In this document: positions 9,833-20,096 of the stretch, piece by piece
Layout: each line of letters starts with the position of its first letter
How positions within the stretch are numbered: the stretch's first letter is position 1
Source: Deltaproteobacteria bacterium
GTDB taxonomy: Bacteria; Desulfobacterota; DSM-4660; Desulfatiglandales; HGW-15
Length of the DNA: 32,772 nucleotides
NCBI GenBank assembly: GCA_019310525.1
Contig: JAFDEE010000066.1
Location: 1 to 32,772 of the forward strand
Reading direction: 5' to 3'
Notes under the pieces: model-generated
The model's input: the letters and a program-made list of their open reading frames with translations, nothing else
Database searches by the model: none
What the model was told of the DNA's origin: nothing
Made by a program: the position numbers and the translations under genes

Positions 9833-11884
9833 ATGGGAGGCCTCTTTGGAATGGAGAAAGAACTCAATTGCATCAATTCAAAGGCCATCTTCGATTATGT
9901 AAGGGCCCATAACAAGGGGGATGTCTCTGGCTTGTTGGGTGACCTCGATCCTGAAATCGACGATCTACCTGATCCTGAAGCCTTCTTGACCGATCCGAAC
10001 AACTGGATTTCCTGCACAGTGGGGGCCAAGCTATATGAACGGGCCCGACGGATCCTGAAGGATGAGAGGGCGGCATTCAAAATAGCAAAGTTCGCTGTTG
10101 AGACGACCACCCTGGGTTATACCCAGGGAATCATCGTCAAGACCTTCTGGTCGACGAAAAAAGGCCTCAAAAATCTGAGAAAGATCAACGAGAAGTGGAA
10201 CAGGAATAAACGAATCGAACTCGTTCACTTGAAGAAGCGGGAGGCCGTGATCAGGCTCCACTGGTATCCAGAGATGGGTTCGACAAAGGATTTTTGCCTG
10301 ATGAATCAAGGATCTTACAGGTATATGCCACGGGTCTGGGGCGCGAGACCCCTGAATCTCGAAGAGACCTGCTGCTTCTTTGAGGGCGGCCCATATTGCG
10401 AATATCGTCTTACGTGGTCGGCGAGAAATCGGTTTCATGAAATCCTCTCCAGGTTTTTCACCACCAAGTCCGTCCTCATGGATACCATCAAGGAGATGGA
10501 AGAGGACAAGAAGGTTATTGAGGAGAAGTATGAGGAGGTCAATCGCCTCAATCTCGAGCTGAATCAAAAGATCAAGCAGCTCACCGCCATCCAGGAGACC
10601 GGTAAGGCCATCCTTTCGATCCTGGACCTGGAAGAGCTTCTTGAGGTGATCATGAACATCCTCTCAAATGTCTGTAAAATCAACCGGGCCATCATAATGC
10701 TTGTGAATCCCAAAGAGAGGTGCCTCGAGTATCTATATGGGGCGGGCTTTGAGGGGGAGGTGCCTGAAGCGATCAAGAATTACAAGGTTCCTTTGGACAG
10801 GCTTAGTAATACCCTGGCAAGGGTCGCCAGTGTCGGAAGGTCGGAATATATTCCGGAAGTGCGGAATTCGCGCCTGAGGAAGGGTAATATCCTTTTGACT
10901 TACGGGAATCCGGAGTCCGTTTACGTAGTGCCCCTTATTACGCGTTCAAGGGTCATCGGGGTGATCGCAACGGATGCCGTTGAAAAGGGAGGGGTTCCGG
11001 AGGCTACCCGTGAGACTCTGGAAATTTTTGCTCCCCAGATTGCGATCGCAATTGAAAACGCCAAGCTGTACCGGCGATTGAGCAAGCAGATGGAGGAACT
11101 CAGGCGTTCCCACGCCCTGTTGAGCCGGGCCGAAAAGTTTTCTTTCCTCGGCAACCTTTCAGCAAGGCTTGCCCATGAAATAAAGAATCCCATGACGGCC
11201 ATCGGGACCTTTATCCAAATGCTTCCCCATAAGTACGACGACGAGGAGTTCCGAAACAATTTTTATAATATCGCCCTGGAAGAAACGGCCAGGGTAAACA
11301 ACCTGATCACGGAACTCCTGGATCTCGTCAAGACCCATGAACCTCACTTCCAGTTGGAGGATCTCCATGATCTAATAAACCGGATGATCCTGTTGGTCTC
11401 CCCACAGAGCAATGCAAAGAAGATAAAGGTTTCCACTTTCTTTGATCCAGAGGTCGGGAGAATATGGATGGATTCGGAGAAAATGAAACAAGTTATTTTG
11501 AACCTCTTGTCCAACGCAGTGGAGTTCACACCGGAAGGAGGAAAGATTGATGTTACGACCCTGAAGACCCGTGATGGCCGATCCTCCGAAATAGTCCGCA
11601 TAGAGATTCGGGACACGGGGATCGGCATCCCCCCGGAGAACTTAGAGAAGGTTTTCGATCCCTATTTCACAACCAAACACAAGAGCAGTATCCACAATGG
11701 AACGGGATTGGGTCTCTTTATCGCCCATAAGAATATGGAGGATCACAAAGGAAGCATCGAGGTGGACAGCAAGGTAAATGAAGGAACCGTGTTCACCCTG
11801 AGTCTCCCTCAAAATCCCTCCATGTCTTCTTCCACTCTGCCCCCGGGGAGGAATCATGAGGCTGGATTCTGTAAAGATCTATAG
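9833..11884 (+). CDS. GAF-domain sensor histidine kinase with an unusual N-terminal sensor
   Basis: 683 residues, with no membrane segment seen. Residues 1-200 form an uncharacterised sensory region ending in EETCCFFEGGPYCEYRL, which resembles the Cys-containing end of V4R-type ligand domains (low confidence). A coiled coil (215-255) leads to a GAF domain (about 255-410), then HisKA with phospho-acceptor His448 (ARLAHEIKNPM), then HATPase with NLLSNA (557-562), DTGIGIP (594-600) and GTGLGL (623-628). It would phosphorylate a response regulator; the divergent NtrC-family regulator is the closest candidate. ATG 9833 has GAGGGG upstream; ATG 9851 is an equally usable start. Its end overlaps the next gene by 29 bp, implying translational coupling. 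Confidence 0.92.
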   Translation: MGGLFGMEKELNCINSKAIFDYVRAHNKGDVSGLLGDLDPEIDDLPDPEAFLTDPNNWISCTVGAKLYERARRILKDERAAFKIAKFAVETTTLGYTQGIIVKTFWSTKKGLKNLRKINEKWNRNKRIELVHLKKREAVIRLHWYPEMGSTKDFCLMNQGSYRYMPRVWGARPLNLEETCCFFEGGPYCEYRLTWSARNRFHEILSRFFTTKSVLMDTIKEMEEDKKVIEEKYEEVNRLNLELNQKIKQLTAIQETGKAILSILDLEELLEVIMNILSNVCKINRAIIMLVNPKERCLEYLYGAGFEGEVPEAIKNYKVPLDRLSNTLARVASVGRSEYIPEVRNSRLRKGNILLTYGNPESVYVVPLITRSRVIGVIATDAVEKGGVPEATRETLEIFAPQIAIAIENAKLYRRLSKQMEELRRSHALLSRAEKFSFLGNLSARLAHEIKNPMTAIGTFIQMLPHKYDDEEFRNNFYNIALEETARVNNLITELLDLVKTHEPHFQLEDLHDLINRMILLVSPQSNAKKIKVSTFFDPEVGRIWMDSEKMKQVILNLLSNAVEFTPEGGKIDVTTLKTRDGRSSEIVRIEIRDTGIGIPPENLEKVFDPYFTTKHKSSIHNGTGLGLFIAHKNMEDHKGSIEVDSKVNEGTVFTLSLPQNPSMSSSTLPPGRNHEAGFCKDL

Positions 11885-13033: not shown

Positions 13034-14965
13034 CTATTCTTCTTCAGGTGATTGGAGGAAGAAAAGGGAGAAGAGGGTGCCGCCGGAACTCAGGCAGTCT
13101 TCCCGCCGGGTGCAATGGGGACACGAGGAGATCCTGCCCGGGCATTGATCCCTCGGTCCCGGAATGAAGCGGCATCGGTCGGATATCATCTCTATTTTGA
13201 AGCGGAACCTTTCGGCGAAAATTTTTGTTCTCAGAAGATCCGCCCCTTTCCCCCCGGCGTTGAAATCGAACGGTCTCTTCGAAGAGTAGTCCATGGTATC
13301 CTGTGTCGCGAAGAAGCCCTCGAAAATTCTTTTGTGATAAGCTTCTGGAATCCCCACCCCGTAATCCCGGATCTTCAAGGCTGCACCATTACCGCGATGC
13401 TCAAGGATCACCTCGATTTCTCCTTCATCCGGTGTGTTCTCAATAGCATTTCTTAAAAGACCGTCAAAGGCTTTTTGAAGGGGGTCCCTGGGCATGAATA
13501 CCGGCGACGGCGTGTCATCAATATGAGTGATTATTTCCAACTCACGGTGGGAAAAGCGGGACCTCAAGAATTCGATTCGTTCCCGGACCATGTCTCCAAG
13601 ATCTATTTCGGTAGGAGGCATCTCCTTCGGTCCAAAAAGTTTCCGGATTTCTTCCCGTACTTTTTCAATTACATCGTTGGGGCCGATATGTTTGCTGATG
13701 AGGGTCTCCAATTCATCCGCACATTGGGAAAGAAGGAAAGAGAGGGTTTGATAAGCGGGAGGGGTTTTTCCTTCCATGATGTCCTGGGCCTCATACTGAA
13801 TGTCCTTGATCCGGTCGATGTTGCGTTTCATCCGATCGACGTTGGATTTCCATTTTTCTCCGGGTAATTCCTTGAGGGTTCGGACCAGGAGATCCAGGGT
13901 GCCCGACAAAATGGCCACAGGGGTTTTCAACTCATGGGAGAGGTGGTTGATGACCTTATCCTTCGCCCGGTTCAGTCCTTTGACCTCTTCATAGGCCTTT
14001 TTCAATTCACCCGTAACCCGTGCATTTTCCACCGAAAGGGCCACCGTTCCTGCTATCATATTCATGAGATCGACATCCCGTGGGTCAAAGTCTCCTTTCT
14101 TTTTATTGATGGCGCACAGGGCCCCGATGATGCGATCACGTCCTTTCAGGGGTACGAGAAGCAAGTTCCGGGTCTGGTACCCCAGCTTCCGGTCTCTTTC
14201 TCTGTGAAGTTCCTGTTCAAGGGAGGTATCGTCGATGACGAGAGGCTTCCCCGTTTTGATGACCCGACCGGCTATGAGTTGATCCATGGAAAAGCGGGTT
14301 TCCTTGGCCCTTTTTAATGAATCGGTGGTGTCATAGGCACCACCGAGCACGTATAGTTCCTGCTTTTGCTCGTCAAGGAGCACAACAACGGAACCTTCTG
14401 TGTCGATCAACCTTTTCACCTCGCCATTGATGAAGTCCAGAAGTTCTTCAAGGGCCGGATACTCCGGCAGGGCCGTGCTGATCCTCAAGATCGCCTCGTT
14501 GATCTTTGCGTTCCTCGTCTCCGCTGTGATATCCCTTAGGATGGCAATAACGCCGGAATCTCCCCCCTTTCCTTCAGAGAAAAAAGTCGCCCGGATGGCC
14601 ACGTCTAGAGTACGGCCGTCTTTAGTGAGGCGTTTTGTCTCATGGCTGAGTAGAACCTTCTCTTTAAAAAGTCGCCTCATGTTTCGGATGGTCTCTTTCC
14701 GTAACTCGGGAGGAATGAAGGGAATCAATTTCCCTTCCAGTTCTGAAAGGGTCCAGCCGAAGGTTTCGGTAAATGCGGGATTCACGTACTTGACTATACC
14801 TTCCCTCGTAAGGACCGCGATCGGATAAGGAGCGAAATTGAGGAGGGTAAGAGTCTTTTCCCCTTCTTTAAGTGAAGCCGTTTCGGCCCGACACCGGGAG
14901 AGTTCCGCTTCAAGCTCCCGGATTCTATCTAAAAGATTCGCCTCGTTTGATTCGTCGGCCACCAT
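13034..14965 (-). CDS. PAS/GAF sensor histidine kinase with a Cys-rich insert in the ATPase domain
   Basis: 643 residues. The N-terminus is a short coiled coil, then PAS (about 42-150), GAF (about 160-315), HisKA with His344 (NHLSHELKTPVA), and HATPase with the N-box GLLRNAIENTPDEG (502-515) and YGVGIP (535-540). Between the ATP-lid region and the final SSGGTLFSLFF strand lies a Cys-rich segment with Cys598, 608, 615, 618 and 624, including CPHC. That could bind zinc or an Fe-S cluster and sense redox state. I chose ATG 14965, preceded by GGAG, over an upstream GTG at 15097 that lies in GC-rich repetitive sequence. No cognate regulator is adjacent; the NtrC-family protein is a candidate. It is convergent with the epimerase operon. 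Confidence 0.92.
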   Translation of the reverse strand: MVADESNEANLLDRIRELEAELSRCRAETASLKEGEKTLTLLNFAPYPIAVLTREGIVKYVNPAFTETFGWTLSELEGKLIPFIPPELRKETIRNMRRLFKEKVLLSHETKRLTKDGRTLDVAIRATFFSEGKGGDSGVIAILRDITAETRNAKINEAILRISTALPEYPALEELLDFINGEVKRLIDTEGSVVVLLDEQKQELYVLGGAYDTTDSLKRAKETRFSMDQLIAGRVIKTGKPLVIDDTSLEQELHRERDRKLGYQTRNLLLVPLKGRDRIIGALCAINKKKGDFDPRDVDLMNMIAGTVALSVENARVTGELKKAYEEVKGLNRAKDKVINHLSHELKTPVAILSGTLDLLVRTLKELPGEKWKSNVDRMKRNIDRIKDIQYEAQDIMEGKTPPAYQTLSFLLSQCADELETLISKHIGPNDVIEKVREEIRKLFGPKEMPPTEIDLGDMVRERIEFLRSRFSHRELEIITHIDDTPSPVFMPRDPLQKAFDGLLRNAIENTPDEGEIEVILEHRGNGAALKIRDYGVGIPEAYHKRIFEGFFATQDTMDYSSKRPFDFNAGGKGADLLRTKIFAERFRFKIEMISDRCRFIPGPRDQCPGRISSCPHCTRREDCLSSGGTLFSLFFLQSPEEE

Positions 14966-15238
14966 CTGAAGATTCTCCGTGAAACGCCTTTCTAAACAAA
15001 GATTCTGGATGTTCTCCTCGCTAAAGTTTCCGTCAAAAAACGGCGGACGGGCCCGCCCGAGGCGGACAAGCCCGCCAAACGACCGGCGGGCAAGCACTGC
15101 GGATTTCGGCCCTTCATCTGTCCTGATTCTTCAGGGCTTAAATACGCTGGGCTCCCGGAGAATATCCCGAGCCCCTGCTTTCCGCTGGCTCCGGGGAAGC
15201 GTGAATCTAAAAGGCAACCAGTGCCCGTCCAAAAATTA
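14966..15238. other. Gene-free stretch upstream of the minus-strand histidine kinase
   Basis: It contains GC-rich repeated bits around 15046-15092 (GCGGACGGGCCCGCC and GCGGACAAGCCCGCC, with CCGGCGGGC), all able to fold locally. No clear promoter or gene was found. The segment ends at the target-site duplication of the next element. Confidence 0.4.
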
Positions 15239-15900: not shown

Positions 15901-17226
15901 ATGAACGGGCTGCGCTTTTCCTTTAAAACGGATCCAGGAATGATTCCCGGCAAGGGAGATGATTCCTTTTTCTGCGAAAACAACCTGTTCATCGTCGCCG
16001 ATGGGGTCGGGAGGGAATATCTTGATGATATCGCCCGGGAGATCTCCTTCCGAGTCATTCAGGAGGCCTTTTTCGACGCACTCCACAAGCGCTACTCTCC
16101 GACCGACGCCCTCCATATCGCCCTTGAGAAAGCCAATCGTGTCCTTCTGGAGGAGGGACGGCGGATCGGGAAGAGGATTCTCGCCTCTGTCAGCGTGGCC
16201 TATGTGCGGGACAACATCGTCTATTTCACCCATCTGGGAGATACACGGATCTATTGCCTCCAGAGGGGGGAGATCCTTCAACTCACACGGGACCACGTCA
16301 TGGTTGAGGAAGATGTTCAGTCCGAGTCTCAGCAACGTCCCCCCCGGAAAAGGCGGGCCATCACAGAGGCCCTTGGACTTCGAGAAGACCCTCCCATTGA
16401 GGTAAAGAAATTCGCACTCCACCAGAGAGATCTGATACTTATGGCGACGGAAGCCTTTACTAGCCGCCTGTCCAACATGCAGATCCTGAAGACCTCCCGG
16501 AAATCCAGCAGTGTGAAAAAGCTTACCGACAGATTACTTTCAGAAGCCAGGAGGATCGACAGAGAACACCGAATGACCGTGGGAGTGCTGGGGCTTGAGC
16601 AAGGGTCTTCCCTGAGGATAAAGATCCCGGCCGCCATAACGGTTTTATTGATTCTCGCCTTTACATCCATGGTGATCTGGAACCTGTACTGGAGCAAGGA
16701 GGCGTCCCGGGAATTGGAGATCCCAAAAATAAAGGAAGCACGGAAACCCCCGGAAGCGCTTCCGCCTGAGGTCCGGAAAAACCCTGTTCCTCCCGAGTCA
16801 AAGCCAAGAAAGGCATCTCCTGCCCCGAAAAACCCGGAGCCGGTGAAAGAGGAGAAGAAGAAAAAAAATCTTCCCCTGAAAGAGATCCAGGATTTTATCA
16901 CGGCGTGGAGCGATGCCTGGGAGAAAAGCGCCGGGGCCCAAGGCGACATGGAGACATACATGTCCTTTTACTCAGAGAAATTTGCTTCCGGACGTTTTCG
17001 AAAATCCACTTGGAAGAAGGACAAGGCTCGAAAAAACAGGAAAAAGCGATGGATTAGCGTGGAAACCAATGACATCAAGATAATGGATGCCCGGGGAAGC
17101 GGGAGGGTCCGGGTCCGGTTCAACCAGGTTTACAAGTCATCCAATTATTCCGTGAAGTCCAGGAAGGAACTGCTCCTGGTAAAGGAAGACGAAGGATGGA
17201 AGATCCTCTCCGAGAGGACCTACTGA
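15901..17226 (+). CDS. PP2C-like protein with altered metal motifs, a membrane helix and a C-terminal NTF2/Cds6-like domain
   Basis: 441 residues. Residues 1-232 align with PP2C/SpoIIE-type Ser/Thr phosphatases: GKGDDSFF, VADGVG (Asp34) and THLGDTRIY. The later acidic motifs are changed: ATEAFTS (182-188) replaces the usual SDGLT, and EHRMTV (222-227) replaces DNxTV, so two normal metal ligands are missing. A membrane helix spans about 242-262, followed by a Pro/Lys-rich linker (about 275-330). The end (FITAWSDAWEKS ... ELLLVKEDEGWKILSE) resembles the NTF2-like domain found at the C-terminus of Cds6-type proteins. The PP2C part faces the cytoplasm and the C-terminal domain the periplasm. It could be a pseudophosphatase sensor. 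Standalone gene. Confidence 0.82.
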   Translation: MNGLRFSFKTDPGMIPGKGDDSFFCENNLFIVADGVGREYLDDIAREISFRVIQEAFFDALHKRYSPTDALHIALEKANRVLLEEGRRIGKRILASVSVAYVRDNIVYFTHLGDTRIYCLQRGEILQLTRDHVMVEEDVQSESQQRPPRKRRAITEALGLREDPPIEVKKFALHQRDLILMATEAFTSRLSNMQILKTSRKSSSVKKLTDRLLSEARRIDREHRMTVGVLGLEQGSSLRIKIPAAITVLLILAFTSMVIWNLYWSKEASRELEIPKIKEARKPPEALPPEVRKNPVPPESKPRKASPAPKNPEPVKEEKKKKNLPLKEIQDFITAWSDAWEKSAGAQGDMETYMSFYSEKFASGRFRKSTWKKDKARKNRKKRWISVETNDIKIMDARGSGRVRVRFNQVYKSSNYSVKSRKELLLVKEDEGWKILSERTY

Positions 17227-19775: not shown

Positions 19776-20096
19776 GTGAAGTGTCCGAAGTGCCGTCATG
19801 CCATCCCCGAGGGGAGAGAGAAATGCCTTTATTGCGGGTGCTCCGTTTCAGGAAATAACCCTGAAAGATCATCCGGGGTCGGGATTGAGAAGGTTTCAGG
19901 TGAGTCCGGCCTCTATGCACAAACCGGGAAGGTACAGGGGATCCAGGAAGACCTTGAATCGATCGAAGCCCTTCTGTTTCGGCAACTGGAGCGCTCGGGA
20001 AGCAAGCGAAGGACCCCCTTGAGCAAGGGGCTTCAAGTGGCCATTTTTTTCCTGTCCATGTTGCTGGGCGGGCTTATTGTTTGGTTTTTTCAATAA
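19776..20096 (+). CDS. Small zinc-ribbon membrane protein
   Basis: 106 residues starting at a GTG. The N-terminus is a zinc ribbon with Cys3, Cys6, Cys17 and Cys20 (CPKC ... CLYC). The middle is hydrophilic, with a short helix around IQEDLESIEALLFRQLE. The C-terminus is one membrane helix (about 86-105), so this looks like a tail-anchored protein with the zinc ribbon in the cytoplasm. Similar small proteins are common in Desulfobacterota without known function. It is 21 bp downstream of the dehydrogenase gene and likely co-transcribed. The upstream ribosome site is poor (AAGGA is 18 bases away), so translation may be coupled. Confidence 0.7.
   Translation: MKCPKCRHAIPEGREKCLYCGCSVSGNNPERSSGVGIEKVSGESGLYAQTGKVQGIQEDLESIEALLFRQLERSGSKRRTPLSKGLQVAIFFLSMLLGGLIVWFFQ

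Follow-up and report, generated by a model that had tools for sequence, protein, structure and literature searches.

The stretch of DNA analysed here (the window, 32,772 nucleotides) carries on its minus strand, at 13034..14965, a histidine kinase gene with a cysteine-rich insert. Read from the ATG at 14965 its product has 643 amino acids and the Pfam domain order PAS-GAF-HisKA-HATPase_c. Upstream of this ATG the frame stays open to a GTG at 15097, which would add 44 residues (the longer protein is referred to as P0001). In P0001 Pfam places the PAS domain at residues 85-194 (14516..14845, minus strand) and the GAF domain at residues 216-356 (14030..14452, minus strand), followed by the HisKA (DHp) domain (13799..13963, minus strand; Pfam and alignment) with the H-box HLSHELKTP and the phospho-acceptor His388. 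The H, E, T and P of the H-box are invariant across 53 aligned sequences. The CA (HATPase_c) domain as delimited by Pfam, structure and alignment (13058..13486, minus strand) comprises the N-box Asn550, the G1 box D578-x-G-x-G, a variant G2 box AGGKGxDLL, the insert and the final strand; N550, D578, G580 and G582 are present in 103 of 104 relatives, the one exception being a gapped row. With H-box, N-box, G1 box and CA fold all present, the protein is a HisKA-type histidine kinase.

Three other plus-strand genes of the window were noted. A further histidine kinase at 9833-11884 has the order GAF-HisKA-HATPase_c; its first ~210 residues are without a Pfam match at E 0.001, and its N-terminal part holds a cysteine-containing stretch, EETCCFFEGGPYC. 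The product of 15901-17226 weakly matches PP2C phosphatases and has a Cds6_C (NTF2-like) domain at its C-terminus. The gene at 19776-20096 encodes a small protein that looks like a zinc-ribbon protein, with the CxxC pairs CPKC and CLYC close to its N-terminus.

The cysteine cluster of the kinase lies at 13094..13174 on the minus strand and reads C598-x9-C608-x6-C615-x2-C618-x5-C624, as established by codon check and alignment. The codons are found at 13172-13174 (C598), 13142-13144 (C608), 13121-13123 (C615), 13112-13114 (C618) and 13094-13096 (C624); in P0001 the same residues are C642, C652, C659, C662 and C668. The original prediction had located these cysteines between the ATP lid and the strand GGTLFSLFF, in the catalytic and not in the sensor part of the protein, and both the codons and the limits of HATPase_c agree with this. 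When the protein was shuffled, five cysteines within 27 residues arose in 164 of 200,000 shuffles. By this measure alone the cluster is only moderately unusual, and its conservation is far stronger evidence.

The ATP lid and G2 region specific to this family, FFATQDTMDYSSKRPFDFNAGGKGADLLR (13229..13315, minus strand), was defined from the alignment of the 104 relatives. Tyr604, Phe612, Ala614, Gly615, Gly616 and Leu621 are invariant in all of them, so that the constraint on the lid is as strong as that on the cysteines. An unusual lid of the form YSSKRPxDFNAGGKGxDLL is common to the cysteine kinases, and the G2 box that follows the lid is glycine-rich but reads AGGKGxDLL instead of the canonical GxGLGL.

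In an AlphaFold model of the DHp-CA part the fold of the CA domain agrees with those of WalK, HK853 and ThkA (Z 18-19, rmsd ~2 A). The insert (13079..13180, minus strand) is located between model strands 275-281 and 314-321, that is, in the turn joining the last two CA strands, where ~33 residues stand instead of the ~5 that are usual. Ordinary kinases of the window's genome have a turn of ~5 residues here (e.g. KSELGNGTTF), with no cysteine. In relatives the HATPase_c profile runs on through the insert to its end (in L088, residues 290-435 on profile positions 2-108), and we therefore regard it as an insertion and not as an appended tail. Modelled alone from 94 sequences, the segment reached a mean pLDDT of 94.4 with ~23 residues mostly in loop; a ligand-held site would be expected to look like this, loop-rich and yet confidently modelled. 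A structure search of the PDB with the insert (Foldseek) returned nothing similar (best E 6.8), and comparison of the cysteine tail with Pfam, NCBIfam, PDB sequences and Foldseek gave chance matches only and no known fold or family. The tail likewise had no match to any Pfam Fe-S model or solved structure, in searches that easily miss motifs this short.

Rather than being poorly conserved, a point on which the original prediction depended, four of the five cysteines are kept at 98-100% among 104 non-redundant relatives (C598 in 104, C608 in 102, C615 in 104 and C624 in 102). This constraint equals that on the catalytic Asn of the N-box and Asp of the G1 box, and most intervening residues are variable in the same 104 sequences. 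The deviating sequences are L083 and L123 at the second cysteine (Tyr in L123) and L085 and L109 at the fifth, L109 ending inside the tail; in none of the 104 is a core cysteine replaced by His or Asp. An Arg before the first cysteine, an Asp two residues ahead of the second cysteine and the sequence CPG are conserved together with the core. C618 is kept in 64 of the 104 relatives (62%) and is elsewhere mostly Ile, Val or Leu. On a tree computed without the tail columns this position underwent ~9 gains or losses, at least 6 of them on well-supported branches, and the four core cysteines stay. Judged from this alignment, the conserved unit is the four-cysteine core C-x9-C-x6-C-x8-C, with one further cysteine being optional. 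A five-cysteine motif was ruled out as the conserved unit on account of the optional C618, and the search pattern C-x9-C-x6-C-x2-C-x5-C proposed originally would miss about a third of the family.

The original statement that similar inserts occur in other kinases was borne out: many related kinases carry one. The window's genome has three such kinases. In an even draw of genomes from the window's phylum the kinase was detected in 38 of 297, and within the window's own order in 66 of 85; a tail-only profile gave matches in 55 of 392 genomes. The searches covered the window's phylum and 97 Omnitrophota genomes, and all members found belong to the window's phylum. Among the matches listed for the kinase profile in the 97 Omnitrophota genomes, none extends more than 1-2 residues into the cysteine region. 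A scan of genome contigs yielded one unrelated kinase, which led to the Omnitrophota, and a search of plasmids yielded ordinary kinases only.

Members combine the cysteine tail with PAS, GAF, PAS plus GAF or no Pfam-recognised sensor, and since the sensor parts differ this widely we consider the tail to be a property of the catalytic core. When heme-copper oxidase was used as a proxy for oxygen exposure no association was observed (14 of 38 kinase-bearing genomes versus 91 of 259 others); with the oxidase equally frequent in carriers and non-carriers, the insert is not tied to oxygen-free life. A description of the insert was not found in the literature searched, in which the insert and its kinase family thus appear undescribed.

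A second gene family accompanies the kinase. Its members are receivers of ~170 aa that end in a short, conserved extension and have no recognised output domain, and they were searched for with a composite sequence written from several members. The receiver family occurs in 39 of the 297 genomes: 37 genomes have kinase and receiver, 1 the kinase only, 2 the receiver only and 257 neither (Fisher p 1.3e-43, a statistic that ignores relatedness). A receiver gene was located at most 1.8 kb from 14 of the 69 kinase genes of this sample, against ~1 expected within 5 kb. The window's genome contains 11 receivers (the loci examined are L147-L156), and copy numbers of 10-19 are reached in some genomes, the 19 in a relative. 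Several of the receiver genes in the window's genome lie beside genes whose sequences, judged by reading, resemble components of TRAP transporters, acyl-CoA ligases or GroEL; no receiver gene adjoins the window's own kinase. The original observation is correct and understated, in that the insert marks a distinct, widespread and conserved subfamily of kinases that has a receiver family of its own.

Several cysteine kinases are adjoined by one or more receivers together with a second, smaller kinase that has an ordinary CA end. This second kinase, with an H-box of the type HELKDP, HDLTSP and similar, lies beside a cysteine kinase or a receiver at L077:6842-7648, L085:620-1447, L090:4633-5466, L091:6808-7659, L092:6578-7354 and L149:2394-3137; in L079 it is fused to a receiver.

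Because four cysteines are under equal, near-absolute constraint within a loop-rich and confidently folded element, we predict that C598, C608, C615 and C624 very probably form a tetradentate metal-thiolate site. Of the metal or Fe-S site suggested originally, the metal-type site is thus made likely by cysteine conservation and the modelled knuckle, and the Fe-S identity is a matter of inference. Zinc knuckles usually carry CxxC pairs, whereas the core here is without the two CxxC-type knuckles of a zinc ribbon or double zinc knuckle. Since the core has no CxxC pair, no exchange of Cys for His occurs and the spacing resembles that of the HhH-GPD loop discussed below, the cofactor is more probably an Fe-S cluster than zinc, none of these points being decisive.

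A structural zinc that merely stabilises an enlarged hairpin, with regulation through the sensor domains alone, is nevertheless a possibility to be taken seriously, if not the one we would choose. It would account for cysteines that are almost absolutely conserved whatever the type of sensor and for a compact, confidently modelled knuckle, and zinc bound by four cysteines is, as general knowledge, the commonest site of this kind in small inserts. It sits less well with the x9-x6-x8 core, with the 104 sequences in which His never takes the place of Cys, and with C618, whose presence in 62% of members gives exactly an Fe-S-like spacing.

It is unlikely that the insert is instead a docking surface for the dedicated receivers or the neighbouring second kinase, with a metal that just keeps its shape. 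That one receiver family accompanies the kinase almost without exception, and often adjoins it, would suit such a role, and CA domain and lid are generally known to be able to touch the receiver in kinase-regulator complexes. Partner specificity of HisKA kinases, however, comes mostly from the DHp helices, and there is wide variation at the surface positions between the cysteines; moreover, no tail-less sister kinases were found, so that the co-occurrence does not distinguish between insert, special lid and DHp. A metal-free thiol switch, in which disulfides among these cysteines would activate or silence the kinase in the manner proposed for SrrB, where a passage of PMC8534201 places a redox-sensitive disulfide in the CA domain, is very improbable: four to five clustered thiols could pair, but two would suffice, and four equally constrained cysteines fit a tetradentate ligand site better.

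Under the preferred reading, that of a metal cofactor at the four core cysteines, the knuckle of ~33 residues that replaces the last CA turn would be held by C598, C608, C615 and C624. The knuckle ends directly ahead of GG(T/S). The Thr/Ser of this motif (T674 in P0001), one or other of which is present in 103 of 104 sequences, and the last strand lie at 13058..13078 on the minus strand. In GHKL ATPases the Thr/Ser of this motif helps to bind adenine (GyrB T165, Hsp90 T184), and going by what is generally known of GHKL folds we take T674 to be the adenine-contacting residue. With the motif adjoining the knuckle, ATP binding could plausibly respond to changes in the knuckle. If the cofactor were lost, oxidised or reduced, the GG(T/S) residue might then shift and so set ATP binding or the phosphorylation of His388, so that the redox gating suggested originally, or gating by iron, would be plausible. 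PAS, GAF and other sensor domains would provide the signal-specific input, the cofactor an input common to all members, and phosphate would most likely pass from the cysteine kinase to the dedicated family of small receivers.

Taken together, a distinct HisKA subfamily in which a four-cysteine knuckle with a metal, Fe-S rather than zinc, governs CA function and which has dedicated receivers has in our estimate somewhat less than an even chance of being correct. Points against it are that C618 is dispensable, that the tail matches no Pfam Fe-S model or solved structure in the searches made, that heme-copper oxidase is as frequent in carriers as elsewhere, and that the window's own kinase has no adjoining receiver gene. 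That an Fe-S cluster inside the CA domain licenses the kinase whatever the sensor reads, and feeds a private, expanded set of receivers beside catabolic genes, is a tentative proposal that may well turn out otherwise. To our knowledge, cofactor sensing in histidine kinases is almost wholly confined to their sensor domains. If true, a cofactor site that is strictly conserved within the catalytic domain would license kinase activity independently of the sensor, and the enzyme's engine as well as its sensor part may then read the chemistry of the cell. The matching receivers, of which some genomes have 10-19 and which in the window's genome often adjoin operons for transport or catabolism, suggest a hub-like signalling network; such a kinase-receiver network was not found described in the literature searched.

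Compared with known systems, the kinase shares H-box, N-box, G1 box and overall CA fold with WalK/YycG, HK853 and ThkA (the Z scores given above). It differs from canonical kinases in having AGGKGxDLL where these have a GxGLGL lid, and the ordinary kinases compared have a short last turn without cysteine.

The spacing of C608 to C624 is identical to that of the Fe-S loop of endonuclease III and other HhH-GPD glycosylases, in which C203, C210, C213 and C219 form C-x6-C-x2-C-x5-C and the third cysteine alone is absent from those listed as taking part in catalysis (PMC11754123). Nearly all of the 62% of members with C618 show exactly this spacing. Unlike in the glycosylase loop, the third cysteine is dispensable in the kinases and an additional upstream cysteine is invariant. 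The dispensable C618 means that the exact match is not a family-wide trait; membership in the endonuclease III loop family was ruled out, C618 being present in only 64 of 104 sequences, and we keep the spacing as an analogy. Homology of sequence or fold between insert and loop was not found with Pfam, PDB sequences or Foldseek, by which such short motifs are easily missed.

Fe-S clusters have been described in two-component proteins, namely the chloroplast sensor kinase (CSK) and FixT (PMC6949291, PMC7078487). In FixT the cluster resides in the receiver domain (Cys 53, 56, 59 and 64) and not in the CA domain. That of CSK is reportedly located in the sensor part, again outside the CA domain. 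A further comparison is with SrrB of Staphylococcus aureus, for which the passage of PMC8534201 citing Tiwari et al. 2020 describes a redox-sensitive disulfide in the CA domain. By this description SrrB differs from the window's kinase in being a Gram-positive kinase with a single disulfide, and no insert of this kind is described for it; it resembles the window's kinase in having redox cysteines within the CA domain, and with this precedent such an arrangement is not without parallel.
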